Assembly (NCBI RefSeq): GCF_964355755.1
Contig: NC_092672.1
Location: 27,462,501 to 27,526,500, forward strand
Direction of reading: 5' to 3'
DNA length: 64,000 nt
Source of the DNA: Antedon mediterranea
Lineage: Eukaryota > Echinodermata > Crinoidea > Comatulida > Antedonidae
Under the pieces are notes generated by a model. The model worked only from the letters and a program-made list of their open reading frames with translations, was not told the DNA's origin and ran no database searches. Of this stretch, positions 704 to 60,400 are shown one piece after another. Both the position numbers and the translations under genes were made by a program. How positions within the stretch are numbered: the stretch's first letter is position 1; every line of letters begins with the position of its first letter.

Positions 704-2659
704 ATGACTAAATCAAGCCAGGATGACATGGATTTAATTGCAGATATCGTTCTGACGAAGGCAATTGGGCCGAGAGATCTTCATAATGCTTATATTAAAG
801 TTAACCAGAAACTACAAGATATTGCATTCAATCAAATACCTTCCATTGATTATCACAAATATGGGACTGGAAGTTGTTTTGAAGGTGTGCCATTACCATT
901 TTGTGGAGATCAAGATTACATGTATAACTTTTCACATTGCCCAGTTGTATTGTGGCCATTTGAACCAGCAAGGAAGTATCATAAAGGTGGATATCTAATC
1001 GCTGAGCAGAGTCCAAATGAACCAGCTTTTTTTACACTGAAAGTAAACAGCAACTGGCCTTTGGATGAGTCTTTGAAAAATGGTGTTGATAAGAATGGCT
1101 ATTTTAGGACTAATGCTCTTCAAACGATAGATGTCAGTAAATTAAAGAATGTTAGAAAACATGGTCCTGCATTTGAACTAACTCATAACTATCGTACAAC
1201 TGATCTAATACTGTGTTTAAAATGCCAGTCATGGCCGTTTCTTTTAAAAAATTGTTTCACAAGAAAAATGTCTAAGCTTGCATGTCTGTTTGTTGGTACT
1301 GAACCTCCAACAAGCAAATCAAAAGAAATGGAGTGGAGGTTATCGTTTTCGCTAGCTGAAAGAGAATTATGTTTAGAACTTGCTGAACCATTTGTCAAAT
1401 GCATGTGTGCACTTAAGGCAATAAAAAATCTTTATGTATTTAGGAAACCTGCACCGTTCTGTTCTTACTTTATTAAGACAGCTTGCTTCTGGATGTGTGA
1501 AACTTCTCTTAATAGTATTAGCACTATGGACTTAATTAGGAAGACACTTGATTGGCTGATAAAATGCTATCTGCATGGGAACCTCCCTCATTACTTTATT
1601 TCCAAACAAAATTTAATTGGACACATAAAAAAGACACGTTGTGAGGAAGTGATAACATTATTGAATGCAGTTAAACAACATCTTTGGAGCAATGTAATGT
1701 CAGGTATTGAAGTTGCTGTTGATTTCTTACCTGTCTTTCGAGGATCACTCAAACTAAGTCTTTCCAACTATTCAGAACTGGAGTCTGTCCTACGGAATAG
1801 CAGAGATAGTAGGATCAAGGAGATACCATTAGAATTACGTAACATGAGTGATAAAGCACTACAATTATTAAGGTTAACTACTATGCATTTTGATGGATTT
1901 GATAGAATCTTTCAAAATGAAATAGAGCAAAATACATTTAATCACCTGGAAACTCTTAAACTGAAACTAGACGATATGATTGAATCAGTTTTACAAAGTG
2001 ATGACAAAATAGTACCAAGCGACTACGAGCATATTTTAAGGCATAGTTTATATTGCTCTTTAGCAGACAGTTACACAGGATTTTTAAAATATTTGCAAGC
2101 TAATGGGAGACATGATCTGAATGGATACCTCAATAAGCCATTGGATTATTATGAGAAAGGATCAGAGCTTGTGTACCCTGATAGATGGAGTGACCAGCAC
2201 CACATAGGTACCAAAATTAATGTCATTAAACATTACTATTTAATGAATGATGTGCAAAAACTGAAAGAAATGCTTGCCAAGTTTGAACCAGTACTTAACG
2301 AAGTCAAAAGAAATAAAGGTGTAATGACAAGACTAAGAAAAGTTTTAATTGGTCTTACTATTATGACCTTTGATCACTTTTCTTGGCAGAACATTGATAT
2401 GGACATATTTGGTCTTGCTGCTAAAATGACCTTAAGTCCATTTTTGAACATTAATCCAATTGTTTTCATACTTTATGTTAATGCAAAGATCTCACTCAAA
2501 GAAAAAGACATTCATAGAGCATTTGGATATTTAAATGAAATGAAATCAAGTTTGACTGTGATTCAAGAAGCAGATCATGAAGTAACACAATATCTAATCA
2601 AAACAATAGAATGGCATTTTCTGTACACATTTTGGTTCGCATTTAGAACGCTCTTCTAA
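704..2659 (+). CDS. Mab-21/cGAS-like nucleotidyltransferase with C-terminal helical extension (copy 1)
   Basis: Intronless 651-residue protein of the Mab-21/cGAS-like (cGLR) superfamily. The nucleotidyltransferase core shows a GS motif at residues 56-57, an acidic pair D69-x-D71 in GDQD, and a candidate third catalytic Asp at 167 in the D-x3-C-L-K-C-x-SWP context. The Mab-21 C-terminal helical domain starts at EWRLSF (about 210-215) and ends near LPHYF (294-298). After about residue 310 comes a roughly 340-residue helical extension shared with the other copies, ending in a hydrophobic tail (LYTFWFAFRTLF). Compared with copies 2-4 it lacks about 14 residues before EWRLSF (the WPTQATLRK segment and the VGVGH turn) and is shorter after KAIK, so it is the most divergent copy. 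In characterised relatives the family makes cyclic dinucleotides from NTPs on ligand sensing; activity here is inferred. The ATG was chosen because it aligns with the other copies. Confidence 0.9.
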   Translation: MTKSSQDDMDLIADIVLTKAIGPRDLHNAYIKVNQKLQDIAFNQIPSIDYHKYGTGSCFEGVPLPFCGDQDYMYNFSHCPVVLWPFEPARKYHKGGYLIAEQSPNEPAFFTLKVNSNWPLDESLKNGVDKNGYFRTNALQTIDVSKLKNVRKHGPAFELTHNYRTTDLILCLKCQSWPFLLKNCFTRKMSKLACLFVGTEPPTSKSKEMEWRLSFSLAERELCLELAEPFVKCMCALKAIKNLYVFRKPAPFCSYFIKTACFWMCETSLNSISTMDLIRKTLDWLIKCYLHGNLPHYFISKQNLIGHIKKTRCEEVITLLNAVKQHLWSNVMSGIEVAVDFLPVFRGSLKLSLSNYSELESVLRNSRDSRIKEIPLELRNMSDKALQLLRLTTMHFDGFDRIFQNEIEQNTFNHLETLKLKLDDMIESVLQSDDKIVPSDYEHILRHSLYCSLADSYTGFLKYLQANGRHDLNGYLNKPLDYYEKGSELVYPDRWSDQHHIGTKINVIKHYYLMNDVQKLKEMLAKFEPVLNEVKRNKGVMTRLRKVLIGLTIMTFDHFSWQNIDMDIFGLAAKMTLSPFLNINPIVFILYVNAKISLKEKDIHRAFGYLNEMKSSLTVIQEADHEVTQYLIKTIEWHFLYTFWFAFRTLF

Positions 2660-2858
2660 CTCGAAACATATATGTAATTACGTGTCCGTCGTGTAAACTA
2701 GGTAGTAATATTCCAAATACTTTTATTACATTACATAAAAAACTGTATATCAATTTTTTTCAAACAACGTTTACTTTGGTTTGATTACAAATATGCAACG
2801 CTAAAGCAAATAATTGATCTCATGTCATGATCATATTTCTCTACAGCTTACTATGTCG
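2660..2858. other. 3-prime flank of copy 1
   Basis: AT-rich sequence that probably includes the 3-prime UTR of the preceding gene. No clear canonical AATAAA was placed. Confidence 0.3.
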
Positions 2859-3478
2859 TTCGGTCGGTTGGTCGGTCGGTCGGTAAACACTAACTTGTAT
2901 ATGGCCTTTTCTTGACATCAGTTTCATCTAGTCAAGTCAATTTTTTACAGTATATTCCTTATGGCCAGAAATCGATGTGGTTATGTTTTCACGGTGCGTA
3001 ATCAAAAATTACGCGGTCTACGCACGATTTAACGAAATCACGTTTGTAATCATATCTTCACAAGCATGAATAACAATTAAATAAAATTTGGTACTCATAA
3101 ATTTCAGAGCATAAATCATCATGGCAATACAATTACGTGCGTAGCGCATGTGACGCATGCGTACGCGCGCTTAAACTTTTTTAAATTGTCAAAATTTATT
3201 TTCGATGAAATAAGATTACGTTTGAAGCATTTTAAGCGTTTAAAACATTGCCATGAGTGCACAGCTTTTTGCACGTGCACAGCGCGTTAAATGTTGATAT
3301 GCACTCACCTGATTTCTGTTTTACAACCTTTCTTTAATAATACTGTATCATCATATTTGATTCAATTTTCAACTCGAAATTACGTTTTACGAGCACGTCA
3401 AAAGTGACATGTTCAGCAAATCGGTTGGTTCGTCGGTCGGTAAACACTAACTTGAGCACGCGACTGCAGCCATCTATC
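2855..3478 (-). mobile_element. GACC-array repeat element, copy A (inverted)
   Basis: About 620 bp of a non-autonomous dispersed repeat, in the opposite orientation to copies at 7484-8198, 8553-9304 and 60003-60425. It has CGGT/GACC tetranucleotide arrays near both ends and a conserved middle rich in ACGTGCGTAG / CTACGCACGTAA motifs. One end carries CACGCGACTGCAGCCATCTA, the inverse of the start of the copy at 7484. There is no coding capacity. It was probably mobilised in trans. Confidence 0.7.
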
Positions 3479-4366: not shown

Positions 4367-4369
4367 GTG

Positions 4370-6190
4370 ACTTACTTACTTAAGCATTGTTACACATAGC
4401 AGTGCATAGGTCATCAACTACACGTCTCCATCTCACACGGTTCTGGGCAATTCCTTCCACCTCTGTCCAGTTTTGGCCAGCATCCTTCACCTCCTTATCC
4501 AGTTCCCTCCTCCATGTGTTCCTTGGGCGTCCTCTTTTTCGTTTTCCTTGGGGATTCCATGTTAGGGCATGCCTAGTTATGTTGTGTTTTGGTTTCCTTA
4601 GTGTGTGACCAATCCATTTCCATTTCCTTCTGCTAATTTCAAATTCCACTGGCTCTTGTCCAGTCCTAACCCATAGATCCTCATTTCTTATTTTTTTCTG
4701 GCCACCATATTCTGAGAATCCTTCTCAGACATTTATTGATGAACACTTGGATTTTCCTTATTATTTGATTAGTAGTTCTCCATGTTTCTGATCCATATAA
4801 CAGTAGGCCTACTGATTTGACATTTGAGTTGAATATTTTGATCTTTGTTTCTGTGCTGATGTATCTTGCCTTCCATACTTTTGTTAGTATATTGAAAGCC
4901 ACCTGTGCTTTCCCAATCATTCCTTTTACATCTTCCTCTGTCTCTCCTCTGATGTTGACTTTGCTACCAAGGTAAGTAAAAGTTTCCACTGGTTCTGTTT
5001 CTCCTTTCCTTAGCTGGATTGCATGATTATTTCGTGTGTTGACCATCATTACTTTAGTTTTCGCTATGTTTACATTTAAGCCAAGCATACTTGATGTTTC
5101 TTCAAGAAGTCTGGTTTTGGTTTGCATTTGCTGATGTGTTTGTGACAACAGAACAATGTCGTCAGCATAGTCCAGGTCTTCTAATTGTTCCCATAAAGTC
5201 CATTGAATCCCATTTCTTTTCCTTGTGTTGTTTCTTTCATTATCCAGTCTATTGCAAGATTGAACAGGAACGGAGACATCAATCCTCCTTGTCTGACACC
5301 TGTTTTGATTTCAAATTCTCTGGTAAGACTTCCCTCATGTAAAACTTGACATGTGACTCCTGTATATGATTTGCTGATTATTTGTATGAACTTTTCTGGT
5401 ATGCCATAGTGCCTCATTATCTTCCACAAAGTTGGTCTGCCTATACTGTCAAAGGCTTTTTCGTAGTCAATGAAATTCATCCAAAGTGGTGTGTTCCATT
5501 CTATTGTTTGTTCCAATATTATTCTGAGTGTGGCAATATGGTCAGTGCATGATTTCTCTTTCCTAAATCCTGCTTGGTTGTCTCTTAATGTCCTATCGAC
5601 TCCCGCTATCATTCTGTCTAGTAGGATTCGGTTAAACACTTTTCCTGCTACTGAGAGCATGGTTATCCCTCTATAGTTTTGCATTCACTTAGATCGCCTT
5701 TCTTTGGTTATTTTACAATGTATCCCTTCTTCAAGTCCTTTGGTATTTCCTCCATTTCCCATATCATGTTGATTATTTCCATCATCATCTGTGATGATGT
5801 GTTCAGATCGGCCTTAAGTGCTTCGGGTGGTATTTCGTCTGGTCCTGGTGACTTTCCGGTCTTCAAATGTTTTATAGCTTTCTTGATCTCTTCTCTTCTT
5901 GGTTTATTACAGTTGATCTGAAGAATGTTTTCAGCTGGTGGAATGTCTACCGTCTCATCTGGTGATGGTCGATTCAATAATCCTTCAAAATACTCTGCCC
6001 ATATATGTGCTTGGTCTTCTTTGGCTTGTAAAACATTACCTTGTCTGTCCTTCACTGGTCTTTGTAGTTGTTGTTGGTTTTATTTGCAAGTTTCTTTGTG
6101 ATTGAATAAAGTTCTTTCAAGTCATTTCTTAAAGCTGCCTCTTCTGCCCGTGTGGCTAGTTCTTCTATTTGTTTCTTCTTATCTTTCTTT
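4370..6190 (-). mobile_element. Degenerate non-LTR retrotransposon (LINE), reverse transcriptase region
   Basis: Minus-strand LINE fragment. Four open segments follow one another with frame breaks. 6055-5708 holds a pre-RT region (KTGKSPGPDEIPPEALK). 5684-5181 holds the core RT blocks: NYRGI, QAGFRKEKSCTDHI, the FIDYEKAFDS catalytic Asp box and TGVRQGGLMSPFLF. The second catalytic box YADD lies at about 5165-5155 but in a different frame, continuing in 5148-4681. 4649-4380 is the C-terminal tail (WIGHTLRKP...GKRKRGRPRNTW). A one-base indel near 5205-5215 separates the two catalytic boxes, and another stop splits the protein near 5690, so the copy is dead. The end at about 4370 has short ACTT repeats. 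No endonuclease domain is seen, so it is probably 5-prime truncated. The clade may be RTE-like, which is uncertain. Confidence 0.85.

Positions 6191-6722: not shown

Positions 6723-6770
<48 letters not shown>
6723..6770. repeat. (AT)n microsatellite
   Basis: Uninterrupted TA/AT dinucleotide run of about 48 bp, directly next to the left copy of the 79-bp direct repeat. Confidence 0.95.
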
Positions 6771-6774
<4 letters not shown>

Positions 6775-6849
6775 AAATCAGGCAAAGAACATTAATTCTA
6801 AACCGCCCGGTAATATACTGAAATTTAATTAATTAATTTGAAACGATAA
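6771..6849. repeat. 79-bp direct repeat, left copy
   Basis: Identical by eye over 79 bp to 7121-7199. Both copies are preceded by a TATATA run. The pair flanks a segment that carries a tRNA-like sequence. Confidence 0.9.
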
Positions 6850-7199: not shown

Positions 7200-7224
7200 G
7201 TGCTACGCATATATATATAAACCC

Positions 7225-7412: not shown

Positions 7413-8290
7413 CCAAAGGCAAATTACTGAAAAAAATGACAATGCTGTGGGTATCAGTGGCTGGATCTCAATGGAGATACAAAAAACAAGGCCATATAGA
7501 TGGCTGCAGTCGCGTGCTCATTAGTGTTTACCGACCGACCGACCAACCTACCAACTGACCGAAATTACTGAACATGTTTAAAAATTTTGAAATGGTTAAA
7601 AACATTTATATTTTTTTTATTTACACGTGCGTAGCCTGTCACTTTTGACGTGCTCGTATAAGGTAATTTCGAGTTGAAAAGTAAGACAAGAAAACAGAAA
7701 TCCTGCAAAAAGAGTGCGAGATAACATTTAACGTGCACTAATCTCCGCACTCAAGGCAATTTTGTAAACGCTTAAAATTGTCTCAAGCGTACTCTTATTT
7801 CATCGAAAATAAATTTTCAAAATTTTAAGCGCGCGTACGTATGCGTTACATGCGCTACGCACGTAATTGTATTGCCATATGATGATTTATGCCCTGAAAT
7901 TTATGAGTACCAAATTTTATTTAATTGTGATTCATGGTTGTGAAGATATTATTACAAACGTGATTTCGTTAAATCGTGCGTAGACCGCGTAATTTTTTAT
8001 TGCGCACCTTGAAAACATAACCACATCGAATCCTGGCCATAAGGAATATCCTGTGAAAAATTAACTTAGCTAGATTAAATTGATATCAAGATAATGTCAG
8101 AAAGCGATAAAACGCATAGTGATACCGGACCGACAGACAGACCGACAGACCGACAGACCGACAGACCGACCGACATAGTGAACTATAGAGTCGCGTCTAA
8201 AAAGCGAAAAGCTAAATCAAAACGATAAAGTAAACAACCAGAAAAGTTAGCAGAGCTTTCGGGCAACACTAGCCCTTCATTAGTGCAAGT
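7413..8290 (-). repeat. Second copy of the Penelope-like unit, interrupted by an insertion
   Basis: The left half (about 7413-7483) and right half (about 8199-8290) match 7225-7388. They are split by the GACC-array element at 7484-8198, so the uninterrupted unit to the left serves as an empty site. Its hammerhead core (8257-8283, minus strand) reads CTAATGA instead of CTGATGA, a change at an invariant core G. Confidence 0.65.
7484..8198 (+). mobile_element. GACC-array repeat element, copy B
   Basis: About 715-bp non-autonomous element. It starts near CAAGGCCATATAGATGGCTG and ends near GAACTATAGAGTCGCGTCT. Near each end it carries GACC/GACA tandem arrays. The middle matches copies A, C and D. 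The borders are set by comparison with the uninterrupted Penelope-like unit to its left. No protein is encoded. Confidence 0.7.
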
Positions 8291-8552: not shown

Positions 8553-9304
8553 ATTAAGTCGCGTGCTACAATGCATGATACCGGACCGACAGACAGACCG
8601 ACAGACAGACCGACAGACAGACAGACAGAGAGACCGACCGACCGACATAGTGAACTATACTGACCGAAATTACTGAACATGTTTAAAATTGTTGAAATGT
8701 TTAAAAACATTTATTTTTTTTAATTTACACGTGCGTAGCCTGTCACTTTCGACGTGCTCGTATAACGTAATTTCGAGTTGAAAAGTAAGTCAAGAAAACA
8801 TAAATCGGGCAAAAAGAGTGCGCAATAACATTTAACGCGCAGAAGGCACGCAAAAATATGCGCACTCATGGCAATTTTGTAAACGCTTAAAATTGCCTGA
8901 AATGTACTCTTCTTATTTCATCGAAAATAAATTTTGAAAATGTTAAGCGCGCGTACTCATGCGTTACATGCGCTACGCACGTAATTGTATTGCCATATGA
9001 TGATTTATGCCCTGAAATTTATGAGTACCAAATTTTATTTAATTGTGATTCATGGTTGTGAAGATATGATTACAAACGTGATTTCGTTAAATCGTGCGTA
9101 GACCGCGTAATTTTTTATTGCGCACCGTGAAAACATAACCACATTGATTCCTGGCCATAAGGAATATACTGTGAAAAGTTGACCTAGCTAGATTAAACTG
9201 ATATCAAGATAAGGACAGAAAGCGATAAAACGCATAGTGATACCGGACCGACAGACAGACCGACCGACCGACATAGTGAACTATAGAGTCGCTTCCACGC
9301 GACT
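8553..9304 (+). mobile_element. GACC-array repeat element, copy C
   Basis: About 750 bp, highly similar to copy B. It begins near AAGTCGCGTGCTAC and ends near CCACGCGACT, giving short terminal inverted matches. GACC/GACA arrays occur at both ends (about 8585-8645 and 9245-9275). Confidence 0.7.
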
Positions 9305-10988: not shown

Positions 10989-13052
10989 ATGGCAGCTGTA
11001 AATAAATCCCGTGATGACATGGATACAATTGTAGATACTTACCTTATGATGGCCATGGCATCAAGAGATCTTGTAATTACTCACATTAAAGTTGAGCAGA
11101 AACTATGGGATATTGCTTTTAATCAATTACCCTATATAACATATCAAAAATATGGGACTGGAAGTTATTTTGAAGCTATGCCTCAGGAGATATGTGGAGA
11201 TGAAGATTTCATGTATAACCATTCAATTTATCCAGATGTATTGTGGCTATTTGAACCAGCAAGGAATGACCATAAAGGTGGTTACGTAATAGCTGAGCAG
11301 AATCCAAATGAACCAGTTTATTTCACACTTAAAGTAAGCAGCAACTGGCCTTTGAATGAATCTTTGAAAAATGTTGCTGTGAATGATTATGTAATACCTG
11401 ATGCTCTTATATTGTCAAATACATTCTATAGTGATTCTGAAAAATATCTCAAAACGTCTAGAATGCACGGTCCTTCATTAGAAGCTACTTTAATAAACTC
11501 TGAAAAAACAGATCAAACCCCTTGTTTAAAATGCCAGTCATGGACACTGGAATCAGAATTTTTTACAAGAGAAAGATTAAACTGGCCAACACAAGCAACT
11601 TTAAGAAAGATTTCAAAGCTTGATTGTCTATTAGTTGGTGTTGGACATGCAAGTAGCTCATCAAAAGAAATTGAATGGAGGTTATCCTTTTCCCTTGCTG
11701 AAAAAGAACTCTGTTATGAACTTAGTGAACCATATGTAAGATGCATGTGTGCCCTTAAGGCAATAAAATCTTCAAAATACATTAATTTATTTAGTGAATC
11801 TGATTCTCCAACACCATTCTGTTCTTACTTTATTAAGACAGCTTGCTTCTGGATGTGTGAAACCCTTCCTTGTAACAATCAAAGCACGATGGACTTGATC
11901 AGGAAGACTTTGGACTGGCTGATAGATTGCTACCAACAAAAATACCTTCCTCATTATTTCATTCCTCAACAAAATTTAATTGGACACTTAACAACGAAAA
12001 GTTGCGAAGAAGTGATAGTTTCATTGAAAGCAGTTAAACGAGACCTGTGGTGCTATGTGATGTCAAGTATCGCAGTTGCAGCTGGTGACTTTACTAACAA
12101 CACTTTTTGTGTCAAATTCAAGCTCCCCAAACTTTCAAGTCCAAAGGACTATGCAATACTGGAGTCTACATTACTTGATAGCACATGTAAGATTGAGATC
12201 ATGAAACGTGATTTAATTAGAGGTTACAATGTATTTTCCATCGGAAAACGACTATTATGTTATACTGTTTTGCATTGTGCAGAATTTAGTAAAATCATAC
12301 AAGAACATATGCAAGTACACGTTGATAAATTGGAAATTCTTCAACTTCAACTTGGCAATATGATTCAATCAGTCTTAGAAAGTGATGACGATATCGTACC
12401 AATCGGCTACAAGAAACTTATTCAGCATCATTTGTATTGCTGTTTAGGAGACACTTATACAGGAATGCTGAAATTTTTTCAAAGTACTAGGAAAGATGAT
12501 CTGCATGACTACCTCAATAAGCCATTGGAATACTATGAGAAAGGATCAGAGCTTGTGTACCCTGATGGATGGAGTGATCAGGGTATAGGTACCCAAGTCA
12601 ATGTGATTAAATATTATTATTTAATGAATGAAGAGGAAAAACTGAAAGAGATGCTTACCAAGTTTGAACCAGTACTTAGCAAAGTCAAAAGAAACAAAGA
12701 TGTAATGATGAAACTAAGAAAAGTTTTAATACATGGACATCTTACTGATGTTGTAGCCTTTGATGAATTTCCTTGGCAAACTGTTGACAGGGACATATTT
12801 AGTCTTGCTAAGAGTTCAACCAACTTTTTTTTTGTTAATCCAATCGTTTTCGTATTCTATGTAAATGCAAAATTATCACTGAAAGAAGGAGACATTTATA
12901 GGGCCTATACAAACTTAAATGAAATGAAGTCAAGTTTGACTGTGATTCATCTTTTAGATCATGAGATAACACAATCATTAATCCAGATCACAGAAAAACT
13001 ATTGGTTTTATGTTTGTATAAGTTTTTGTTCTTATTTAGCAAACTATTCTAA
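10989..13052 (+). CDS. Mab-21/cGAS-like nucleotidyltransferase with C-terminal helical extension (copy 2)
   Basis: Intronless 687-residue protein. GS is at 58-59, the acidic pair D71-x-D73 is in GDED, and the candidate third catalytic Asp is 175 (TDQTPC). A conserved FFTRERLNWP segment leads to [12 protein letters not shown] (about 227-238), the start of the Mab-21 helical domain, which includes [14 protein letters not shown] and LPHYF (320-324). From about 340 to 650 is a helical, TPR-like extension. Its best-conserved blocks are [20 protein letters not shown] (507-526) and NPIVFVFYVNAKLSLKEGDI (617-636). The last 20 residues are hydrophobic and aromatic (CLYKFLFLFSKLF). The stop codon overlaps a possible AATAAA polyadenylation signal (TAAATAAAA). 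Family members sense nucleic acid or other ligands and signal through cyclic nucleotides; this role is inferred. Confidence 0.92.
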   Translation: MAAVNKSRDDMDTIVDTYLMMAMASRDLVITHIKVEQKLWDIAFNQLPYITYQKYGTGSYFEAMPQEICGDEDFMYNHSIYPDVLWLFEPARNDHKGGYVIAEQNPNEPVYFTLKVSSNWPLNESLKNVAVNDYVIPDALILSNTFYSDSEKYLKTSRMHGPSLEATLINSEKTDQTPCLKCQSWTLESEFFTRERLNWPTQATLRKISKLDCLLVGVGHASSSSKEIEWRLSFSLAEKELCYELSEPYVRCMCALKAIKSSKYINLFSESDSPTPFCSYFIKTACFWMCETLPCNNQSTMDLIRKTLDWLIDCYQQKYLPHYFIPQQNLIGHLTTKSCEEVIVSLKAVKRDLWCYVMSSIAVAAGDFTNNTFCVKFKLPKLSSPKDYAILESTLLDSTCKIEIMKRDLIRGYNVFSIGKRLLCYTVLHCAEFSKIIQEHMQVHVDKLEILQLQLGNMIQSVLESDDDIVPIGYKKLIQHHLYCCLGDTYTGMLKFFQSTRKDDLHDYLNKPLEYYEKGSELVYPDGWSDQGIGTQVNVIKYYYLMNEEEKLKEMLTKFEPVLSKVKRNKDVMMKLRKVLIHGHLTDVVAFDEFPWQTVDRDIFSLAKSSTNFFFVNPIVFVFYVNAKLSLKEGDIYRAYTNLNEMKSSLTVIHLLDHEITQSLIQITEKLLVLCLYKFLFLFSKLF

Positions 13053-13424: not shown

Positions 13425-13735
13425 TAGAGGAATTTCTGAAGAGGGGCATGGTATAAAGATTGTTTACAGTGGTTCTATGTGGGATATTGCTTATCAGCAT
13501 TTACCCTTCATAACTTATCACAAATATATGGTGGGTGGTTTTATAAATATATGCCAGTGTGGAGATCAAGATTGAATGTTGAAAGTAAACAGCACCTGGC
13601 CTTTAGATGAATATTGTATTGTTGACAAGAATGGTAACAAATTTCTGAGATGCTTTCAGGTAATTTAATTAAGCGTAAAACTCTACATTGGGCTGAAGTA
13701 GAAATAACAGATTTTTTCACAAGAAAATGAATAAA
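13425..13735 (+). pseudogene. Decayed fifth copy of the Mab-21/cGAS-like gene (N-terminal part)
   Basis: Translated pieces match the N-terminal half of the neighbouring copies in order: a WDIAYQHLPFITYHKYMVGG-like stretch around 13478-13540, a CGDQD-like piece (TGTGGAGATCAAGATT at about 13558-13574), then LKVNSTWPLDE at about 13580-13612, VDKNG at 13620-13635, and a DFFTRK-like end near 13711-13728. Stops, frameshifts and an internal deletion between the GDQD and WPLD blocks make it non-functional. It lies directly downstream of copy 2 in the same orientation, which suggests an old tandem duplication. Confidence 0.75.
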
Positions 13736-16087: not shown

Positions 16088-18124
16088 ATGGCAGTTGTGT
16101 GTAAATCAAGAGGTAAAGACAATGATAGAATTGCAGATAAGCTTCTTAAAAGAGCCATGTGTTTAAGGTCTCTTCGTATTACTTCTAATAAAGTTAAACA
16201 GAAACTATACGATATATCTATTACTGCATCCTGCAAAAGAAAATATGTAGTGGGAAGTTTGTATGAAGCTATGCCTCACATAATTTGTGGAGATCAGGAT
16301 TTCATGTTAAATCATCCACTTTATCCAGTTGTGTTGTGGCCGTTTGAACCAGCAAGAAAGGATCATAAAGGTGGCTATCTAATGGCTCAACAGAATCCAA
16401 ATGAACCAGTTTATTTTACGCTAAAGGTAAACAGCAACTGGCCTTTGGATGTATCTTTAAATTATGCTATTAATGAGTATGGTTATATAATGCCTGATGT
16501 CTTTACGAAAGATGAATTCCGTAAATCTGAAACAACATTTCAGGAATCGTCTAGGAAACATGGTCCTTCAATAGAATTAACCCATTATGACTCTACAACA
16601 ACTGATATTATTTCTTGTTTATCCTGTCAGTCATGGCCATTGCATTCAGTAGATTTTTTTACAAGAGAAAGAGAAAACAGTTGGCCACCAGATGTGATTT
16701 TAAGAAAGATCCCCAAGGTTGATTGTCTGGTAGTTGGTGTTGGACATCCAACAAGCCCATCAAAAGAAATTGAATGGAGGTTATCTTTTTCTCTAGCTGA
16801 ACGAGAACTTTGTTATGAACTCTGTCAACCATATGCTGAATGCATGTGTGCTCTTAAAGCAATAAAATCTTCAAAGTACATTGATCTATTTAGTGAATCT
16901 GATTCACCAACACCATTCTGTTCTTACTTTATAAAGACAGCTTGCTTCTGGATGTGTGAAACTTCACCTACTAAAGGTCATGTCAGCACTATGAACTTGA
17001 TCAGGAAGACACTTGATTGGCTGATAAAATGCTATGAAGAAAGGTATCTCCCTCATTATTTTATTTACCAACAAAATTTAATTGGAAATTTCTCAAGAGA
17101 ATGTTGCGATAAAATGAGAGTTTCACTGAAGACAGTCAAAAGAGATCTTTGGAGCAATGTGATGTCAAGTATTGCTGTTATAGTTGGTGGTTGTATGGAT
17201 GTCATTCTAGATCATCAACTCTTTATTCCCAATAGCCCTAAGGAATATTCAGAACTAATAAATAGCAAAGATAAGATTAAGGAGATTAACACAAATATAC
17301 TTAGCAATGATTTTACAAAAGAGTTTGAACTACGGTGTTTAACTACTTTGCAGTGTTTTGTATTTAGTGGTATCATACAAGATTATTTCTGTCAAAAAAT
17401 CGATCCATTAGAAATTATTCAACTTCAACTCGATGATATAATTGAATTAGTCTTAGAAAGTGATGACAAAAATAGTACCAATTGGCTACAAGGAAGTTTA
17501 CATTATTTATATTGCTGTTTAGGAGATACATATACAGGTTTATTGAAATATTTACAAGACTGTGGGATATATAATCTGCAAGACTACCTCAACAAGCCAT
17601 TGAATTGCTATGAGAAAGGATCAAAGCTTTTGTACCCTGATGGATGGAGAGATCAGAGATGTATAGGTACCCAAATTAATGTTATTAAATTCTACTATTT
17701 AATGAATGAAGAAACAAAACTGAAAGAGATGCTTGTCAAGTTTGAACCAGTACTTAGCAAAGTCAAAAGAAACAAACAAATATTGACAAAACTAAGAAAA
17801 GTTATAATAGGTACTACTAAAAACACACAAGTGGATATTTATGCATGGCGTATTGTTGATAAGGACATATTTGGTATTGCTAAAAATTCAAAACATATTA
17901 CTTGCTTTAATGCAATTGTTTTTATATTTTATGTAAATGCCAAACTATCACTTAAAGAAGGAGACATTTATAGAGCATATGAACATTTAAATGAAATGAA
18001 GTCAATTTTACATGTCATTAAATTAGCTGATACTGGGGGTACACTAAAGTTGATTATGATCATAGAAAATTATTTGATTAAAAGTGTATATATGTTTTGG
18101 TTATTATTTAGAAAGATCTTCTAA
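16088..18124 (+). CDS. Mab-21/cGAS-like nucleotidyltransferase with C-terminal helical extension (copy 3)
   Basis: Intronless 678-residue protein. GS is at 56-57, D69-x-D71 is in GDQD, and the candidate third Asp is 173 (TDIISC). The Mab-21 helical domain begins at [12 protein letters not shown] (228-239) and contains [14 protein letters not shown] and LPHYF. The remaining roughly 340 residues match the helical extension of copies 2 and 4, with DYLNKPLNCYEKGSKLLYPD and a second helix-rich block near the end. The C-terminal tail is hydrophobic and aromatic (SVYMFWLLFRKIF). Catalytic residues look intact. No membrane-spanning segment longer than the tail is seen, so a soluble or peripherally attached protein is likely. 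Confidence 0.92.
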   Translation: MAVVCKSRGKDNDRIADKLLKRAMCLRSLRITSNKVKQKLYDISITASCKRKYVVGSLYEAMPHIICGDQDFMLNHPLYPVVLWPFEPARKDHKGGYLMAQQNPNEPVYFTLKVNSNWPLDVSLNYAINEYGYIMPDVFTKDEFRKSETTFQESSRKHGPSIELTHYDSTTTDIISCLSCQSWPLHSVDFFTRERENSWPPDVILRKIPKVDCLVVGVGHPTSPSKEIEWRLSFSLAERELCYELCQPYAECMCALKAIKSSKYIDLFSESDSPTPFCSYFIKTACFWMCETSPTKGHVSTMNLIRKTLDWLIKCYEERYLPHYFIYQQNLIGNFSRECCDKMRVSLKTVKRDLWSNVMSSIAVIVGGCMDVILDHQLFIPNSPKEYSELINSKDKIKEINTNILSNDFTKEFELRCLTTLQCFVFSGIIQDYFCQKIDPLEIIQLQLDDIIELVLESDDKNSTNWLQGSLHYLYCCLGDTYTGLLKYLQDCGIYNLQDYLNKPLNCYEKGSKLLYPDGWRDQRCIGTQINVIKFYYLMNEETKLKEMLVKFEPVLSKVKRNKQILTKLRKVIIGTTKNTQVDIYAWRIVDKDIFGIAKNSKHITCFNAIVFIFYVNAKLSLKEGDIYRAYEHLNEMKSILHVIKLADTGGTLKLIMIIENYLIKSVYMFWLLFRKIF

Positions 18125-45400: not shown

Positions 45401-48400
45401 TGGAACCCATTTTCTCTTTTTAAAGAAGGCTTTTATACCACAGTCAGCTTCAAGCTTCTAAAAACTCACTTTGCCATTGAGAGATCAAATATCCCGAGGA
45501 ACTGCTTGAGTGATGTCTGGTACATGACGTTCACCATACTCATTTCAGTGATCAAGAAATACAGGATACTGCCTCTTGTTGCAACTAAAAGGGAAGCAAA
45601 TAATAGGTTATGCTTTATGCTTCAGCAGTTCACATAAAGTAGGACATTCAATATCTTAGCACTGTCTACACTATCAAACTTCACAAAAAAAGTGTGATAT
45701 GCACATTTTATTGTCACATAAAGTTTGATAGTCTAGACAGGGCTTTACCACGGTACTTCCTTTTTTCTTTTCTTCTATGAGAATGGTAAAATTAATAGTA
45801 TCTATTTCAAAACTTGATGTCATTTGTATAATACTACATTTATAGACCTGTCAAATGCAGTATTATTATAAGAGATTGGTTGTGTCTCCCTTCAACTTAA
45901 ATGCATTGTCCCACAAAAACATGAAAAGTGCAAATTTGCGGTTCAATAAATGATTAAATATAATCAAAAACCAAATTTGACGTTTTTTCGTTGCAGTTTT
46001 TTCAGGTAAATAGTTTTGGTTCAAACTGAACAACTTTTATGTAAAAAATGATATATTAAAAAAAAAGTATCTATTCAGGGGACAATCACTCTATACAAAA
46101 GTCCTATGTATTGAAACTCCTGTTCTTTATGTAGAATAAACAAAAAATATACTTGATCCTTAAAGTAATCCAAATCAAAACTGCTTTAAAAGTGGTCTTT
46201 GACAATGGTACAAAATGTTTTACTCTACCAGGCCTAAATTCCTCTCTAGCTTCATTAATTTTAATCTCTGTCTCAGCAGCAACCACAAGCTTCTCAGTGA
46301 CTTCTTCAGCCGTCTGTTTAGTGACTCCAAGTACCGCAATCAAAGACTCATCTTCCACAAGTGAGCCTTGAGTACTGGTCAAACGGTAGAGAAGGTTGTC
46401 TTCAAGTTCTTTCATCTTGCGTTTGTTGGCAGTTACATCTTCCATTAGCTTGGTTCTTTCCGCTTCTAGTTCTTGTTTCTCTGTGAGGATGACACGACCA
46501 AGCAACTGGTCTTCCAGGCCTTTCATGGTGACAGTGAAATCTATGATAGATGTTCTGGCAGATACCTACGGATAAAAGTAAATTAAAAATTACAACAGTG
46601 CAGGAAATATTAATAGAAATCGGACGGTATTTGCAGATGCAGTTGATTTCTGTTTTGATTTTTTTTATAAGCCTTTGCTATGCATTACATTTTTTGTTAT
46701 TGCTGTTTGGACTTACCTCTGGTGTGTATGTAGGGTTAGCCAGTTTGGTTGTGACATACAAACGGAATCCTTTCATCACATCCACTTCTTTGTCACCAAC
46801 TTTGACCTAAAAAGAAAACAGAAATAGGTCAAATAAAAATAGAAAATTGTTTTAATAGTATTATATTATAAATGTTTAGTATTTACCACATAGTAAAGTA
46901 GTCAAATGAGGCAACTAATATCTAAATGACTTACCTTCAATGTTCTGCCAGACTTGATAAAGTTCTTTTCCAGTACATTATCTAGTGCAGGATCCAACTC
47001 CTCGCCGATGTCCTCAATAAGTAGAGGGCGCCCTAGAGATAGACTGTCTTCCAAATGGGTTCTGAAGTACTTGTGATTTAAAGAAGTCACCTATAAAGGA
47101 ATGGATTTGAAAGAATTTATCAACTGCTAAAATGTTAGTGGTTTGAACACCTATTAAGGGGACACTTTTGAGACCCAACAAAGCGTCCCTTATAGAGGTG
47201 TCCTCTGAATAAGGGTATTCCAAAGGATTGGTTTTATTGTATATATCAAAATAGATATGTCTGTTATTGTATACAATCTCTTTTTACCATATTTTTGTTT
47301 ATTAAGTTAAAAGCTAAGTTTAGGACTTTATTAACTGTCCTTATTTTTCTTATGTATGAGCAAATACAGACACACTAGCCAAAACCAAAACGCTCTGAAC
47401 GAGTCCTACTAAACACCATACAACACATACTACACGCACCTAATCCTAGACGCAATGTTAGAACTTATCCCATAAATAACCTCTCCCATCTAGTTAGAAT
47501 ACTAAAGTGCATTTATAACCTAGGTGCATGTGGTACAATTTACAGCTTTGTTTTGTAACATGTAGTGTTTAACAGGACTGCTGTGAACTGCCGAATGTTA
47601 CCTGTAACTCAAACTCCTGTTCCCTATTCTTGATCCATGTCTTGCCTTGTCCTTGAGGATCAATCAACAACGGGTATCGTGTTGCCTTGGTAACAATGAT
47701 GCCGTTTTGTACGGATAACTCGTCATTTGGTAATCCTTGAAGATTCCACTCTCCAATCTTTATACAATAAAAGTTTAAAATTTAATCACATTCAGATACT
47801 AAATTATATAGTATGTCCTTGTAACAGTAAACTATACATATATACGTAACCAGTATCATCTGTACGCACAGGTATGAAATTAACACTCTGTGTGATATTA
47901 CAACAGTATCCGGTGTATCTATATATAAATCGCGCGTTATTTCTAGATTGTTTACTCTATGGTATAAAAAGTTGGTTAGAATCTCGGTCTGATTTTAACC
48001 ACCTGATGTAGTCCTGTTTACTAATTAAATTGAGTTAGATAATTAGTTATTGACAAATTGAACGAATTTAGGTTCAACGATTTGCCCCAAATTGGGGTGT
48101 TTTCCGATCGTGGTATACACTGTACACATATACAAAGAACATTTATTACTGTGACTGTGGGTAGGCTCTACTGCTGGATATATAAACACATAATATACAA
48201 ATAAAAACTTTATTACTGACAGTTGCTTCTCAACGTTTGTATATTAATTAATAATTATAAAAAATATAAACGTCGTAGTGGTGTATCGTTACATGTACTT
48301 TACTATTTCAATCTACTATAAAAGGGACAGAAAAAAAAGGTATTAAATCGTAAATGTTTTACTGTGTTTAGTGGTATATTATTAATAGGCCTTAATAGTT

Positions 48401-51400: not shown

Positions 51401-54400
51401 AAGGCCTATCAGGATCCAAGCTATTAATATCAAGCCTCTTCTGGAATAGCAGCATCACACAGTCCATAATACGCATAATGAGATGAGGTGGTTTACCCAG
51501 TTTACGTACGGTAGATATATGAGATGGTTTGAGTGTGTTGAGAGCATTTTCAGCCTCTTCAAGAGCTGGTCTGGCTGCTTCTAACTTAGTCTCTGCTATT
51601 GTCTTATCTGCTTCGATCTCATCTACAATATGCTGTGCTTTATCTTTTACTTTCTGCACTGCATTCTTTACTTTCTCTGCTGCCTGTGCCGACACTGTTA
51701 CCTCTGCCAATACCTACCAAATCAAGTGCAAGAAAATTATATTGTAGATAATTATGATTTATTAAAATGTGTGTACATTTTTGGTGAATTGAATAATATA
51801 CAAATCTAGGAGTACCATGCCAAACAAAGTATTGGGACCAGATAGGCACATAGTAACAGTTGGGCTTATCATTTTTAATATTGTTCTTAGGATGGGGCTT
51901 GGTTAATGTTTATGGGCTGGTTACAAAATATTACTTTTTTCATATACCCACACACATCATTGAATGGGGAGAAGAGAACATTGTATGTAGTTCTGGGTTT
52001 AAAATTTTCTATTTCAAAATGAGCATCATTAAATAAAGCCCCCTTTTTAAAAAATAAAGCTGATTTATGTAAATTGCAGGCATTGTTTTTTATAAGGAAA
52101 AATGTATAATTAAAAAAAAAATAAATTTTACATTAGAAAATACAATTTTATTTCAATTAACCAGTTAACAATTGTAATTCTTATCTATAACATTATGAAA
52201 AACTTTTTTTTTTTGCCCTGGTATCAGAAAGTTTGTATAGGGCGACTACATCATATCAAGAATTGAAGTGTGTTGTTTTGTTCGCCTTAGTGTTGATATC
52301 AGAATGTTTGTATAGGCCTACATCATATCAGTAATTGAAGTGTGTTGTTTTGGTGCCCTGGTGTTGATATCAGAATGTTTGTATAGGCCTACATCATATC
52401 AATAATTGAAGTGTGTTGTTTTGTTCGCCTTGGTGTTGATATCAGAATGTTTGTATAGGCCTACATCATATCAATAATTTGTTAATGATTAATGAACATT
52501 ATGTCTATATTCTCTATTCTATTGCTTACAATTTGGTTGGGGTGCATTGAATTGATTATTCTTCATTGGAACTGAATGGTTTCAAACATTGTTTAAATTC
52601 TGTTGTGGCTAACTTCTCCCATTGTAGGCCTATATCTATTTTGAAACTATATTTTGTATTCTAGAATTATTCTAAATTTAACAATTATCATTAAAAAAAA
52701 ATGTCCATATGACATTGAGACAGAGACACATTATAGGCTTTTGACTACTATTAAGAGGCCAGGTATTATATTTATGGGGAAAGAAGACCACTACATGTTT
52801 GAACAATCACTCCTCCCATTTCTATAGTTATTAAATAGACTAACCTGTTCAGCTTTCACAGATGCCACAGCGAGTTCTTTCTCCTTGTCCACAAGTTCTA
52901 ATGCAAGCTCAGCTACAGACTCTGTTGCCTCAATCAGTTTGTTTAAGCCTGTGTTCATACGCTCAGCCAATTCATTGATTAATGCGTGTTTCTCCTTGTA
53001 GATTGTTTTGTATCCTTCCAGAAAGGACAGGTATGACTTTGGTGTGACATGTGTCTGCCGTCGATACCTTAAAAAAAATAAAGAAATTTACATTTTTGTA
53101 CACGTTGCTAAAATCTAATCTAAGCCATTGTGTAAAAATGAGTGTTATCACAAATCCCACTCTGATCATTGCCTATACAAAAACTCATCATGATAATTAT
53201 GTTTTATAAAATATTCAAAAAGTCATAATACAAACCCATTTTGCAGTGAGCTCTGTCTACACTATCCAAAAGTGTGATGTGCCCAAATACAGTAGTGATA
53301 TGCCCAAATAAGGTAGTGATATGATGTCGTTGTGTCCATATGGAAAAATCACATTTTTCATTGTGTAAAAAGAGTAAAAGATCATACCTCTGGAAGTACT
53401 CAATGCAAATCTCAGCAACTCCATCATGAAACACTCCCATAGTGTTGACAACAGACTGCTTAGTCTCTGGTGTACATACAATATCAAAACTTGACAAGAA
53501 GTGTTGTGCCACAGCGACCAGAGCATCTTTAGGCCAGCGAGTGAACCAATCCATCGTACAGCCAGATATAAGTCCAGGAAATTTCAGGGAACGATTACGG
53601 AACTTTTCTCCAACCTTTAATAAAATGTACGCATTGATGCTTAAAACTAAGAAATGTATTGTAGTACGTATTGAAGTACAGGTCTCAAATTAATATACAA
53701 ATAATAATTTGTTAATGTTTATGAGAAGGATGAACAAATAATTTCATACAGTGAAAGATGAAACTCAATCTAGTAAAAATAAGAAAAACCTAAATGTCTG
53801 ACACCATTATAGATATTCTTTATGTGTGCTGGAGGCCATTGTTCATTGAAATAAAAGAAGGAAAGGAACTATCTCTAATTAAAGTCTACTGTTGGAACCA
53901 GGGTTTGTATACTAATAGACCTAACTACTGTTAAATAGCTTGACCCTATATTAACCAAGGCAGCATGTACAGTTAATCTTCACTGGCCTTTCTCTTGGTC
54001 ACATACATATGATTTATTTTTGAGTTTCTATCTTATAATGTTCATACAGCAAGAAAATATGAAAATGAACACATCATACTGCTTTTTGCTGATAATGTAT
54101 TTAACTTACTGGTGAAAAGCACAATACCACATGTAGGTTGTTTCTAGCTCTTGAGATGAAGTAATCATACAAGTTATCTTGAGTTGGTGGATGTCTGGGA
54201 AATTCCTTCTTCATGACGGGAATCAACTCTTGCGTTATCTCATCCAACTCTTCACGAGCAAATAAATTAGAGACCTAGAGAGAAAAAAATAAATAAAATA
54301 CAGCATTATTATTAAAAAACAATAATATTTTTGCATTAAAAAAAAATCTTTACATTCTGAAAATCATCCAATTCAAAAAAATGCTATTATTTTTTTCAAC

Positions 54401-57400
54401 ATAGTACACGTAATATTTGGACTGGGTCAGTGCTATTTTGAAGTTCATATTTTAAATCATGAAGGTTAGTAGTCTTTCTTGTTACTCTTCCAAGAATTTA
54501 CAGGGTTTTAAACTTGCAATATATTGTAACATTTAAAACAAAATATAAAGATTTTCAGTAGGTATAAAGAGCTAATGAATTAGCTTACCTCTCCAGAGCT
54601 GAGGACATTGTTGATATATTCTAAGAAGGCTTCATCCTTGACTTCATTATCAGTGAAGATGAATGTGATACCTTGGCCCTCACAACCAGCAACACGATAC
54701 ATGTACTTGAGATCATCCATCAAGTTCGTAACATTGTAAGACCTTAATTTTTATAGAATTTAATTTTAATAAAAGACATGTAATGTGATTAGGATAATAC
54801 CTGTATAATTGCAATTTATAAGAACAGAAAGCAAAAATAAAGATGAAGGAAAAAATATAAACCATAAAAAATTGATTTAGACAGGGCAATGCATGGTAAT
54901 AAACATCAAATAAATTATATAATAATTTACTAAAAAAGATATATAATGTGATTAGGAAATAATATTGTTAATGTAATGTACGGTAATAGGCATAAAATAA
55001 ATTGTAATTAATTTTAATTAAAAAAGATATAATATAATGTGATATGGATAACATATTGCAGTTTTAAAGACAGCAACATTAAGAAGGAAAAAAGAATGAA
55101 TTTAAACTATATAACTGATTTAGATGCGGCAATTATGCATGACATTGTAAATAAAACATAATATAAATTGTATATTATATGCATTTCCAACACTGATATA
55201 GCCAGAATGGTGTTATTATACAATATTAGCAGCTAGCAAATCCCTGGAAGATAGACCAAATTATTGGTTGTGTTTTTTTTTTGTACAGTAATAATACCAT
55301 CAGGTTTTCCACTATACTTATAGTAGCTAGTTGTTGCTATTTTGATAAACAATAGAAGATCAAAATCCCCATTGTTCACATAACTAATTTCAACAACTCC
55401 CAACTCTTCATCCCTTTACCCACTTCACACATTGAACCTTCACTTACTTTATTCAATCATTTTCAAATCAGAGTAAACATTAACAGACAGAATTTAAGCA
55501 AACTAGAACAGATTAGAAAAAGACCTTTGTACAACAAAAAGCAATCACTATTTACATGATCATCAAACCCTTCTAAGGTACAGTACAATAGACAGTGTGA
55601 ACTTTTTTTTTAAGTTCACTCTATTTTGACTGCTTTTGAGTATTGCTGTTGGAAATATCTCTAAATTCTATCCTTGTTAAATTACAATAAATTACTTGAA
55701 ATAACTGTAAGTTTGTGTACCATTACGAATTGCACCTGCGGGCCAGTAGAAATATGAGCAGAATATTACGTGAAGACATGGATTCAATTGCAGATTCGTT
55801 TCTTAAAATGGCCCTGTCAGATAGGGATCTTCACATTGCTCAACTTAGAGTTGAACAGAAAGTAAGAGATATTGCTTTTACAGAATTACCCTTAATATCC
55901 TACAGAGAATATTTGCAAGGGAGTTTTTATGAATCAATGCCGAAAGCATTATGTGGAGATCAAGATTTAATGTTTAGTCAACCAATTTATCCAGTTGTAT
56001 TGTGGCCATTTGAACCAGAAAAGATGCATCCTACAGGTGGATATGTAATAGCTGAGCAGAATGCAAAGCAACCAGTTTATTTCACACTTAAAGTACACAG
56101 CAACTGGCCTTTGGATGAGTCTTTAAAAGACATTGTTGATAAGAATGGTTACATTATGCCTGATGTTTTTATAAATAATGAATTTCATAAAGTTTATACA
56201 CCATCTCAAGGAACGTATAGAAATCATGGTCCTTCAATAGAACTTACCAGCAGGGACTTAGTATTAGTGATGGATCAACTATATTGTTTCACCTGCCAGT
56301 CATGGCCATTGCATTCAGAAGATTTTTTCAATAGAGAAAAACGAAATAACTGGCCAACACAAGCAATTCAAAGAAAGATGGCTAAGCTTGATTGTCTGGT
56401 AGTTGGTGTTGGACACCCAAGAAGTGCATCAAAAGAAATTGAATGGAGGTTATCATTTTCCCTTGCTGAAAAAGAACTCTGTTATGAACTTAGTGAACCA
56501 TATGTTAGATGCATGTGTGCCCTTAAGGCAATAAAATCTTCAAAGTACATTAATTTATTTAGTGAAGTCAAATCTGATTCACCAACACTATTCTGTTCTT
56601 ATTTTATTAAGACAGCTTGCTTCTGGATGTGTGAGACTTTTCCTCCTGAAGGTCATAGCACTATGGACTTGATTAGGAAGACACTTGATTGGCTGATAAA
56701 ATGCTATGAAGAAAGTTACCTTCCTCATTATTTTATTCGCCAACAAAATTTAATTGGAAATTTATCAAGGGAATGTTGTGAAGAAATGATAGTTTCATTG
56801 ACAGCAGTTAAACAGAACCTGTGGTGCAATGTGATGTCAAGTATTGCAGCTGCAACTGGTGACATTATCAAAAACTCTTTTAGTTTCATATTGAACATCT
56901 CTGAAGAACCAAATAGTCCAAAAGACTATGCAAAAGTGGAATCTTTCCTACTAGCTAGCGTTAATAGGATTGAACAGATGAATAATGTTTTAACACAACT
57001 TATGGATGGTTTTGTCAGTTGCGCACGACTATTATTTTTAAATACATTAGTTTTTTCAGAATTTAATAGAATCATAGAGCATAATGGGGTTGATCCATTT
57101 GTAGTTCTTAAGCTTAAATTTGACAACATAATTGAATCAGTCTTTGAGAATGATGACAACTTAGTACCAAATGGCTACACAAAATTTTTTAAGCATCATT
57201 TGTATTGCTGTTTAGGAGATGCTTATACAGCATTATTGAAATGTTTACAAAGTAGGCCTACTGGGAGAAATGATTTGGGTGACTACCTCAATAAGCCATT
57301 GGAATATTATGAGAAAGGTTCAGATTTTGTGTACCCTGATGGATGGAGTGATCAGTGCATTGGTATTCAAATTAATGTCATTAAATATTACTATTTAATG

Positions 57401-60400
57401 AATGAAGAGGAAAAACTGAAAGAGAAGCTTGCCAATTTTGAACCAGTACTTAGAAAAGTTAAAAGAGACAAAGATGTAATGACAAAACTAAGAAAAGTTT
57501 ATGTACTGTGTGCTTCGCAAAATGAATTAGCTAATTGGCATAACATTGACAATGACCTAGACCTAGGTCTTGTTGTTAATGATAAAATATTTGTATTTAA
57601 TCCAATTGTTTTCATATTTTATGTCAATGCAAAAATATCACTAAAAGATGGAGACATTTATAGAGCATATGCAAATTTAAATGAAATGAAGTCAAGTTTA
57701 ACTGCGATTCCAATATTGGAAAGATACGATATACCTTTGCTAATTACGATTATTGAAAGGTTATTGGCTAATTGTTTATATAGATTTTGGTTCTTATTCA
57801 GAAATCTTTCCTAAATATAAAAGCTATGCAGTTGCTCTATGAGTACAGTGTGAATATACCTAATTGTTACCCTACTTATTCAAACTTATGGTTTATGTTT
57901 TGCATGTCTTTTGTTTTACAGTTTTATATATTAACTATTTCTGCATGTATCTAGCTCTTTAGAGGCGTGTTTTTATGGCAATACCTATTGTTTGCCTTAT
58001 ACAGTTGAGTACGTATCGGCTGGTGCCTAGAAAAAAATAATCGGATGTAATGTAAACTAGATTTAATTCGTCACTATGACGAATTATAGGTTATATGCAT
58101 TGATTTAAATAAAGATAATTGATTGATTTAAGATATTTTGATTGATTGATTTTCTCAGAATCTTTAGTTATTTATAATATATGATAGGATCTTGCTAACG
58201 CAAATACAATAGCCGGTATCATAATCCGATCAAAGATCCTTCTGCGTATATAATGTCGTGAACCACATTTGTGTTTTTATCTAAATTTCATTATAAATCA
58301 TCTGTATAATCTATACACTAAGAATACAATTGAACAAACAATACGGATAATAAAAAAAAATCTTATTTCGCTTCGTTTCCCAATGTGAGACTCGAACTCG
58401 GTACCTTGAATGCTATAGACACGAGAAAAGACCACCGAGCCATACACAACGGACTAAAAATTATGGAAAGATTCCTCCATGTATTTACTATGCAGTAACC
58501 ACTTTGGTGCAGATAGATTATTACATACCGCAATGAATTATAATGTTTTACTATGATGACATCTTTAAAGATTTTTAAAAATGATGCACTGTCAAACTAT
58601 ATACTTTTAACTTTAATATATGAACTTCTTAAAATGGACCTGAATGGATTTTCGATTTTTTTCATTTTAGAATGATGTTTTGGGGGCTATTAGGTGTTGC
58701 TAGAATGTATATTGTTACAAAATATAAATTGGCCCTTTTGGGGAAAGCCCCATTTGAAAATCAAAAAAATTCGCGGGTGACGTCACTTTGCGAATATATT
58801 CCTATCCCTCCAATGGAAAATTTGCAGTTTTTTGGCTATAACTCTTGAAATCTATGGAGTATTTTCTAAAAAATGCTTGTGCATTTGCAGAAACGTATTT
58901 AGAATTTTTTTAGATAAAATTATTACCGTATAAACGGTTATTCATCGAGAAAATGACGATTTAAAATCTTAAAATCAACGGTTTTTTTCTGGCAATACCG
59001 AAGTTGGCCTGGCAACGTTGTCCGGGATACAGCTCCGTGCGCAATGATGCGTATCCATATTTTCCGTTCGTGTATTTTGTATATCGTTCGTAATTTATAC
59101 TGCTAAAATTTGTTAGTTTCTTTAGTTTTTAGTTTAGCAGAATTAAATTAGTAATATGAGATGATAATTTATTTGTCACGAATCAGGCAGTTTGAAAACA
59201 AATTTTATTCATATTTTACTTTGGCTTGACAATGAGCGCAGGAAGTTGTTGATATCGCTTTGGTCCTTGGATACACATGAAACGGAGCCTCGCCGCATGA
59301 TGTGGGTGGTGGATCGACTCCGCGCTCTGGATTGGGGGCCTAGGCCTAGTAAAGGTTTGGGAGGTAGGCCTTCTAAATTTGGGTTTTAGAACAAACGAAG
59401 TATATTTTAGGGACCTATATTTCAACACCATTAGATATTGAATAAATTAGTATTAGTGTTCCAGGCTGTCGATCATTCACTGACTATCGGGCGGCATACA
59501 CGCTCTCGATATCATCGTATGTATATGTGACGTCGTGAATATAGAGGCTTCCGACGGCCGTTGAAATAGAATATTGCAATGGCGTGAGTAATTTTCACTA
59601 ATTTACCATGGTATCTTAAAATTTCGTTTTTACTCAAAATACTATACATTTTGTTTTTATTTGTGTGGGTTTGTGTTAATTTGATACATTTAAATAACAT
59701 GTGTGAATTTCTTGAAAAACGAAATTCCATTTCAGGTCCATTTTAAGGAAGAAAGTTAATGTTAAGTTTGTTATTTCGGCCTAAGAAAATGTTATAATTT
59801 GTTTGATTGTCGAAATTAATTTTTGTAAATTTAATATGCCATTAATGATGACTTAATCAACTTTTGTTCTCTTAATTTCATAATAAATCATACATATGAT
59901 AAATACAGTACACTTCAAGAAAATGAAATAAAAAATAGCTGTTCCCGAGCATTCCAACGATATATATTAATTTAAAAATTTAGCATATTTTCACCATTTT
60001 GTTAACTTATACGTGCGTAGCCAGTCACTTTTGACGTGCTCGTATAACGCAATTTCGAGTTGAAACGTGAATCAAATATGATATTATTAAAGATTGTAAA
60101 ACAGAAATCGGGCAAAAAGAGTGCGCTTAACGCTTAAAATTGCCTGAAACGTACTCTAATTTCATCGAAAATAAATTTTGACAACTTTGAACATTTTAAG
60201 CGCGCGTACGCAAGCTTTATATGCGCTACGCACGTAATTGTATTGCCATATGATGAAATATGACCTGAAATTTATGAGTACCAAATTTTGTTTAATTGTG
60301 ATTCATGCTTGTGAAGATATGATTACAAACGTAAAATCGCGCGTAGACCGCGTAATTTTTGATTGCACATCGTGAAAATATAACCACATCGATTCCTGGC

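Follow-up and report, generated by a model that had tools for sequence, protein, structure and literature searches.

The question raised by a 64,000-nucleotide stretch of the genome of the crinoid Antedon mediterranea is whether four similar open reading frames (ORFs) within it encode working immune receptors that form cyclic nucleotides, or proteins that merely share the fold of such enzymes. This stretch, hereafter the window, covers positions 27462501-27526500 of contig NC_092672.1 (C3) in an assembly (G000) of 354 Mb and 18 contigs. A listing of ORFs of at least 150 amino acids (aa) with ATG starts revealed four intact single-ORF genes of one Mab-21/cGAS-superfamily family, all on the plus strand: W1 (704..2659, 651 aa), W2 (10989..13052, 687 aa), W3 (16088..18124, 678 aa) and W4 (55754..57814, 686 aa). 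Such proteins are relatives of the immune DNA sensor cGAS. We consider it probable that the four genes belong to a radiated family of cGAS-like receptors (cGLRs), which would combine a long family-specific C-terminal domain with the synthesis of cyclic dinucleotides for STING.

The window ORFs show 54-61% identity to the sequence at the head of each alignment. The Pfam Mab-21_C model scored above its cut-off in all four proteins and the Mab-21 nucleotidyltransferase (NTase) model in two (30.6 and 28.2 bits), with W1 falling marginally below (24.0 bits where 24.1 are needed) and W3 giving the lowest score of the four (17.2 bits). PF03281 and PF20266 matched all 25 long proteins of the family in this genome at E<=1. 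In PDB profile searches cGLR1 8gjy_A was found at 6.9e-16 with the four window sequences and at 1e-26 with a 25-sequence profile, which excludes chance resemblance. The best and second-best matches of the larger profile were the cGLR1 chains 8gjy_A and 8gjw_A, which have the Mab-21 NTase and helical lobe in common with it; the match extended over positions 150-351 for 8gjy and 32-333 for cGAS 6x59. These cGLR1 chains of 376 and 355 aa are without the extra C-terminal domain of the window proteins.

All four window proteins carry a GS motif, D-x-D, a third Asp, C-x2-C-x-SW and a ten-residue motif of the Mab-21 domain. In W1 these include GS at residues 56-57, DQD at 69-71 and D167 as third Asp; W2 has DED and W3 DQD, each with the third Asp present. 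In W4 the activation-loop motif G56-S57 lies at 55919..55924, as placed by motif and joint alignment, and D69-Q-D71 (55958..55966), the first two catalytic acids by alignment, falls over E-F-D of cGAS. D174 (56273..56275) falls over the third Asp of cGAS and cGLR1, and the ten-residue motif E230-E239 (56441..56470) aligns with TWRLSFSxxE of cGAS. The residue preceding D-x-D is G in the window copies; elsewhere in the family it can also be A, S or N.

We compared the active site across the family in a 42-row joint alignment at 11 columns: the G and S of the GS motif, the three acids, and six further columns (R, S, S, E, Y and K) whose pocket roles are those of the cGAS structures. All 11 columns coincide between W4 and cGAS 7lz3, and 11 of 11 are present in each window copy. 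Compared with cGAS (for instance 7lz3 and 6x59), the window proteins differ in having D for the first E and a C-terminal extension, and they show a gap opposite its Cys-rich CC...CC stretch, the zinc-thumb insertion. The GS/D-x-D part is covered by all 25 long proteins but L016, which is truncated at its N terminus, and each of these 24 retains a G[S/G] activation-loop motif and three acids, the third being D in 23 and E in L005. The pocket residues are nearly invariant throughout the long family, L025 having N in place of one pocket Ser. The acids are likewise present in all eight short relatives and all four ankyrin-fused relatives described below. cGLR1 8gjy shares the GS, the three acids and, as a TWP, the turn after the third Asp, and has E-F-D where the window copies have D-x-D. 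In contrast, MAB21L1 (5eog) and the genome's own Mab21L (L035), which belong to the same fold family, lack the GS, carry Q in place of the third acid and read V/Q/A and G/S/T, respectively, in the R/S/S columns.

The initial annotation had described four full-length, intronless cGAS-like/Mab-21 ORFs with intact catalytic residues. ORF listing, Pfam and PDB profile matches bear out the four ORFs and their superfamily, and the acidic triad is complete when aligned to cGAS. Its motif list stands except that the SWP given for every copy is SWT in W2. Intronless is accurate for all four in the sense of one open frame per gene, as read from the DNA alone, a structure not special to them, since Mab21L and the short proteins of this genome likewise each consist of one ORF. 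Homology between window copies detected by blastn stops at or near the ORF ends. This is compatible with retroposition and with tandem duplication alike, because neutral flanks at a synonymous divergence (dS) of about 0.45 may be too diverged for blastn.

The initial annotation proposed a lineage-specific expansion of immune sensors; within the one genome searched, the expansion proved to be large. In genome match lists made exon by exon, in which weak matches may be missed, the Mab-21 model matched 44 places, all above its cut-off, and the W4 protein 69. Forty loci (L001-L040) were fetched. Together with the window genes they gave 25 intact ORFs of the long form, 596-869 aa counted from the first Met, one of which (L025) is very diverged. 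Four fetched long-form loci (L006, L021, L023 and L024) are broken, and about 15 further unfetched places, by our own grouping of W4 matches, show stops or fragments only. Between W2 and W3 the window itself holds what is left of a fifth copy (13480..13639, plus strand); it matches W4 at 55868-55974 and 56090-56153 and has a stop directly after GDQD. Flanks are shared in two young pairs, less so in L012/L016 than in L017/L019; because of its shared flanks L017/L019 looks like a DNA duplication.

More distant relatives fall into three kinds. Eight intact short proteins have 319-371 aa, and L026, the only one of them searched against PDB, matched MID51 best. Loci L026-L034, at C1:23.48-24.25 Mb and C7:24.49 Mb, encode such short proteins, which have basic cores and come from single ORFs; the NCBIfam CBASS cyclase model on L026 remained far below its cut-off (E 0.0022). 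Four ankyrin-repeat proteins (L036-L039) contain a Mab-21 NTase domain, their ORFs extending beyond the fetched stretch. When one ankyrin-fused protein was searched against PDB, ankyrin-repeat chains dominated the best 60 matches listed, and the result was not used. The genome has one Mab21L (L035), which matches MAB21L1 at 6.4e-195. Among viral contigs, 25 stretches fitted a pattern and none of them codes for a relative.

A tree was inferred with IQ-TREE (LG+C20) from the 42 rows, comprising 34 of the 40 fetched loci, the four window ORFs and four references; the broken loci L006, L021, L023 and L024, the truncated L031 and the fragment L040 were left out. The 25 long proteins form one side of a branch with support of 100/98, apart from MAB21L1. 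The initial annotation had named a grouping with non-enzymatic Mab-21 proteins as the outcome that would count against it, and this tree does not group them so. MAB21L1, Mab21L and cGLR1 8gjy cluster together (98/92), the ankyrin forms are a single group (100/98), and the short proteins cluster with MID51 (99/99); MID51 is without the first two acids that all eight keep. The deep branching order is unsure owing to the long branches of cGAS, L025, the ankyrin rows and MID51. Within the long clade, W1-W4, L001 and L002, all located at C3:26.89-27.52 Mb, constitute one set (100/98), which adjoins four genes of C7; the ten together are supported at 100/99.

The same genome encodes candidate partners. 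The STING_LBD model gave 15 exon-level matches, all in a single tandem cluster at C1:19.07-19.11 Mb, corresponding to about seven copies by profile coverage. According to the passages of a preprint (PMC9980059) consulted here, cGLRs have radiated to tens to hundreds of genes, notably in bivalves and cnidarians (Stylophora, Crassostrea virginica, Dreissena). The same passages couple such radiation with 3-10 STING genes in some species, count 42 cGLRs and 7 STINGs in one coral, and describe fusions of some cGLRs with ankyrin or TPR modules (PMC9980059). As such radiations are already published, the window genes are a further example of a known cGLR/STING radiation and not a new kind of system. 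They differ from the cnidarian and bivalve cases in a C-terminal domain without convincing Pfam match.

To determine how the copies evolve, we estimated the ratio of nonsynonymous to synonymous divergence (dN/dS) for five window pairs, all but W1/W3. It ranged from 0.55 to 0.69 at dS 0.39-0.53, with the frames kept, and reaches 1.06 in L017/L019. Codon-site models M1a and M2a were then compared for ten of the 25 long genes (the window four, L001, L002, L003, L004, L005 and L007), using a custom script with fixed relative branch lengths and naive posteriors; M2a on 673 columns and the null simulations had one optimisation start, and the 331-column and segment runs two. On 673 columns twice the log-likelihood difference (2dlnL) was 151.8, with 9.5% of sites at an omega of 4.5. 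Restriction to 331 strict columns, each five or more positions away from the nearest gap, left a 2dlnL of 65.2 and 3.4% of sites at omega 6.0. Forty null simulations yielded a maximum of 8.85, three of them beyond the nominal 5% line. The signal also persisted when segments were analysed on their own trees, the means by which gene conversion was addressed (NTase part 38.5, C-terminal part 16.4). Hence diversifying selection acts on the clade of the window genes and the C7 cluster.

Seven strict sites pass a posterior of 0.9, namely W4 residues 15, 27, 38, 58, 175, 614 and 657. The first three are in the N-terminal part, which from the alignment and cGAS anatomy we take to be the place of the spine helix, and the last two in the C-terminal domain; residue 58 directly follows GS and residue 175 directly follows the third Asp. 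This signal is the best support for surfaces that change between copies, but it points at the catalytic pocket too. The initial annotation's different surfaces thus gain indirect backing from selection and from isoelectric points (pI) of the four cores of 5.3 to 8.9. On a more doubtful view, taken up again below, selection beside the catalytic acid (175) and the GS loop (58) may mean that the copies also differ in product or activation threshold, matched to the several STINGs.

We infer enzymatic activity, product, ligand, STING coupling and an immune role along the following lines. Each protein would most likely be a regulated nucleotidyltransferase, to whose NTase lobe, C-terminal domain or both a pathogen-derived or stress ligand would bind. 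The GS activation loop would then close, and the D-x-D...D triad would join two nucleotides to a cyclic dinucleotide, to be read by one of the animal's several STING proteins. Under host-pathogen conflict the copies would diversify at ligand-facing and pocket-adjacent positions. If this is true, one genome offers about 25 cGAS-like enzymes as a natural series in which sites of conflict-driven change are marked, alongside about seven STING copies, and whether such a radiation diversifies ligand, product or both could be tested directly.

Several observations weigh against this interpretation. The published cGLR motif has 50-90 residues up to the third acid and a hydrophobic residue between the first two (PMC9980059). 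The definition of a cGLR in the same work further comprises a G[S/G] activation-loop motif and homology over NTase core and helix bundle, both of which were observed here, together with predicted structural likeness to cGAS and synthesis of a nucleotide second messenger. The window copies keep the acids and depart from the motif at two places: in all four, as in 13 of the 24 long proteins covering the site, the middle residue of the first pair is polar (it is hydrophobic in the other 11), and in all 24 the third acid follows D-x-D at a distance of 95-132 residues. The literal regular expression of the motif was dropped as a discriminator, as it passes one of 25 long and two of eight short rows and also rejects 7lz3 cGAS and 8gjy cGLR1. 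cGAS itself has a spacing of about 91, which makes the 50-90 limit a soft one. cGLR1 8gjy carries C at the R column, where the window copies carry R, and for that reason we do not regard this column as decisive. AlphaFold on the four window sequences reached a mean predicted local distance difference test (pLDDT) of 35.9, a low value, so that the geometry of the triad is taken solely from the alignment. With respect to selection, the Mab21_C lobe of the ten genes gave a 2dlnL of 0, that is, no signal, and in a second clade of seven genes the 46.5 obtained on all columns fell to 0 on strict ones, so that selection is not claimed for it. Finally, the cores of W1 to W4 have a pI of 8.9, 5.3, 8.1 and 5.7, and the acidic W2 and W4 fit poorly with all four being cGAS-like nucleic-acid sensors. 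The median core pI is 7.0 in the 25 long and 8.9 in the eight short proteins, and in this respect it is the short forms, more than W2 and W4, that resemble nucleic-acid sensors.

The acidic cores also speak for a different job: with the active site intact, the enzymes could make a linear or other product, or answer an endogenous ligand, in a non-immune role uncoupled from STING. The C-terminal domain agrees with this. W4 residues 356-686 (56819..57811), apparently helical, align across 22 members of the family, and found no convincing Pfam or PDB relative: Pfam matches were weak and scattered, in one to three of the 22 members each and none widely common, and the best PDB match was a MarR-type regulator at E 0.018. 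A TPR nature of this domain, an impression from its repeat-like AKxSLKxGDIxxA pattern, received no backing from the Pfam or PDB matches. However, gain and decay of copies, diversifying selection and a STING cluster are typical of the immune case, and we regard the different job as unlikely, though it is the alternative to be taken most seriously.

Less likely still is that the proteins are pseudo-enzymes of the Mab-21 kind, which would use the fold for binding only and keep the acids for holding metal or nucleotide. The polar middle residue of D-x-D in place of E-F-D, the scores of W1 and W3 below the Pfam NTase cut-off and the example of MID51, in which a member of the fold has lost acids, are all consistent with it. 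Yet 24 of 24 long proteins covering the site keep the three acids in a nearly invariant pocket, whereas MAB21L1 and MID51 have lost some; the MAB21L1/2 type loses both the third acid and GS, which the long family keeps, and the tree separates the two. That the genes are tandem or retro copies in decay, with little function, their site-model signal an artefact of misalignment or gene conversion, is highly improbable: the broken loci, fetched and unfetched, the high dN/dS up to that of L017/L019 and the second clade's vanishing signal speak for it, but four full frames are kept at dS of about 0.4-0.5 and the ten-gene signal survives both gap-free columns and separate trees.

The oddest part of the family is the C7 sub-branch with a hydrophobic extension, which lies outside the window and within the same ten-gene clade. 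In L004, L005 and the broken L006 the N terminus is longer by about 200 residues, which include three to five hydrophobic segments (19-residue hydropathy above 1.6); L003 has a shorter extension with one segment, and L007 one strong segment. The best peaks in the extensions of L004, L005, L006 and L007 are 2.1-2.7. C-terminal hydropathy peaks of up to 2.09 (L014) occur in several other members, which makes hydropathy alone not specific. A genome search with the extension found six places, all at C7:8.058-8.090 Mb. L004 and L005 differ there in 12% of bases, their single-base alignment gaps come in cancelling pairs, and random mutation leaves no stop in about 1% of draws. Against its being constrained stands a dN/dS of 0.80 for the extension, a value not clearly smaller than 1. 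The extension is probably membrane-spanning, possibly multi-pass.

We offer only tentatively, as a rather doubtful extension of the cGLR interpretation, that the copies differ in what they sense, what they make and where they sit, with the C7 sub-branch as a membrane-anchored cGLR that would place second-messenger synthesis at the membrane. This would be an unusual placement of cyclic-dinucleotide synthesis. The passages of PMC9980059 consulted mention neither a hydrophobic extension like that of some C7 copies nor a membrane-anchored cGLR, and the titles and abstract openings of the 15 papers listed, out of 297 matching a literature search, do not mention the latter, which is weak evidence of absence.

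The remaining features of the window belong to other genes and to repeats. Dynein heavy chain exons were recognised by Pfam on the minus strand at 46104-46565, 52791-53087 and 63155-63355, two above the cut-off and that at 52791 below it. As they flank W4 on both sides, W4 probably lies within an intron of the dynein gene, oriented opposite to it. On the plus strand, 22427-22819 and 24237-24668 are exons of a sodium:neurotransmitter symporter gene, with further exons probably downstream. Reverse transcriptase fragments of a retrotransposon occupy two frames of the minus strand at 4681-5684 (RVT_1 on two tested ORFs), and the fragment at 5181-5684 is the only ORF listed in the window besides W1-W4. 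A dispersed repeat of about 0.5 kb is represented at 2839-3409, 7989-8155, 8715-9288 and 59997-60432 by pieces 77-87% alike in blastn, and pieces of this repeat lie near several of the cGLR-like genes.

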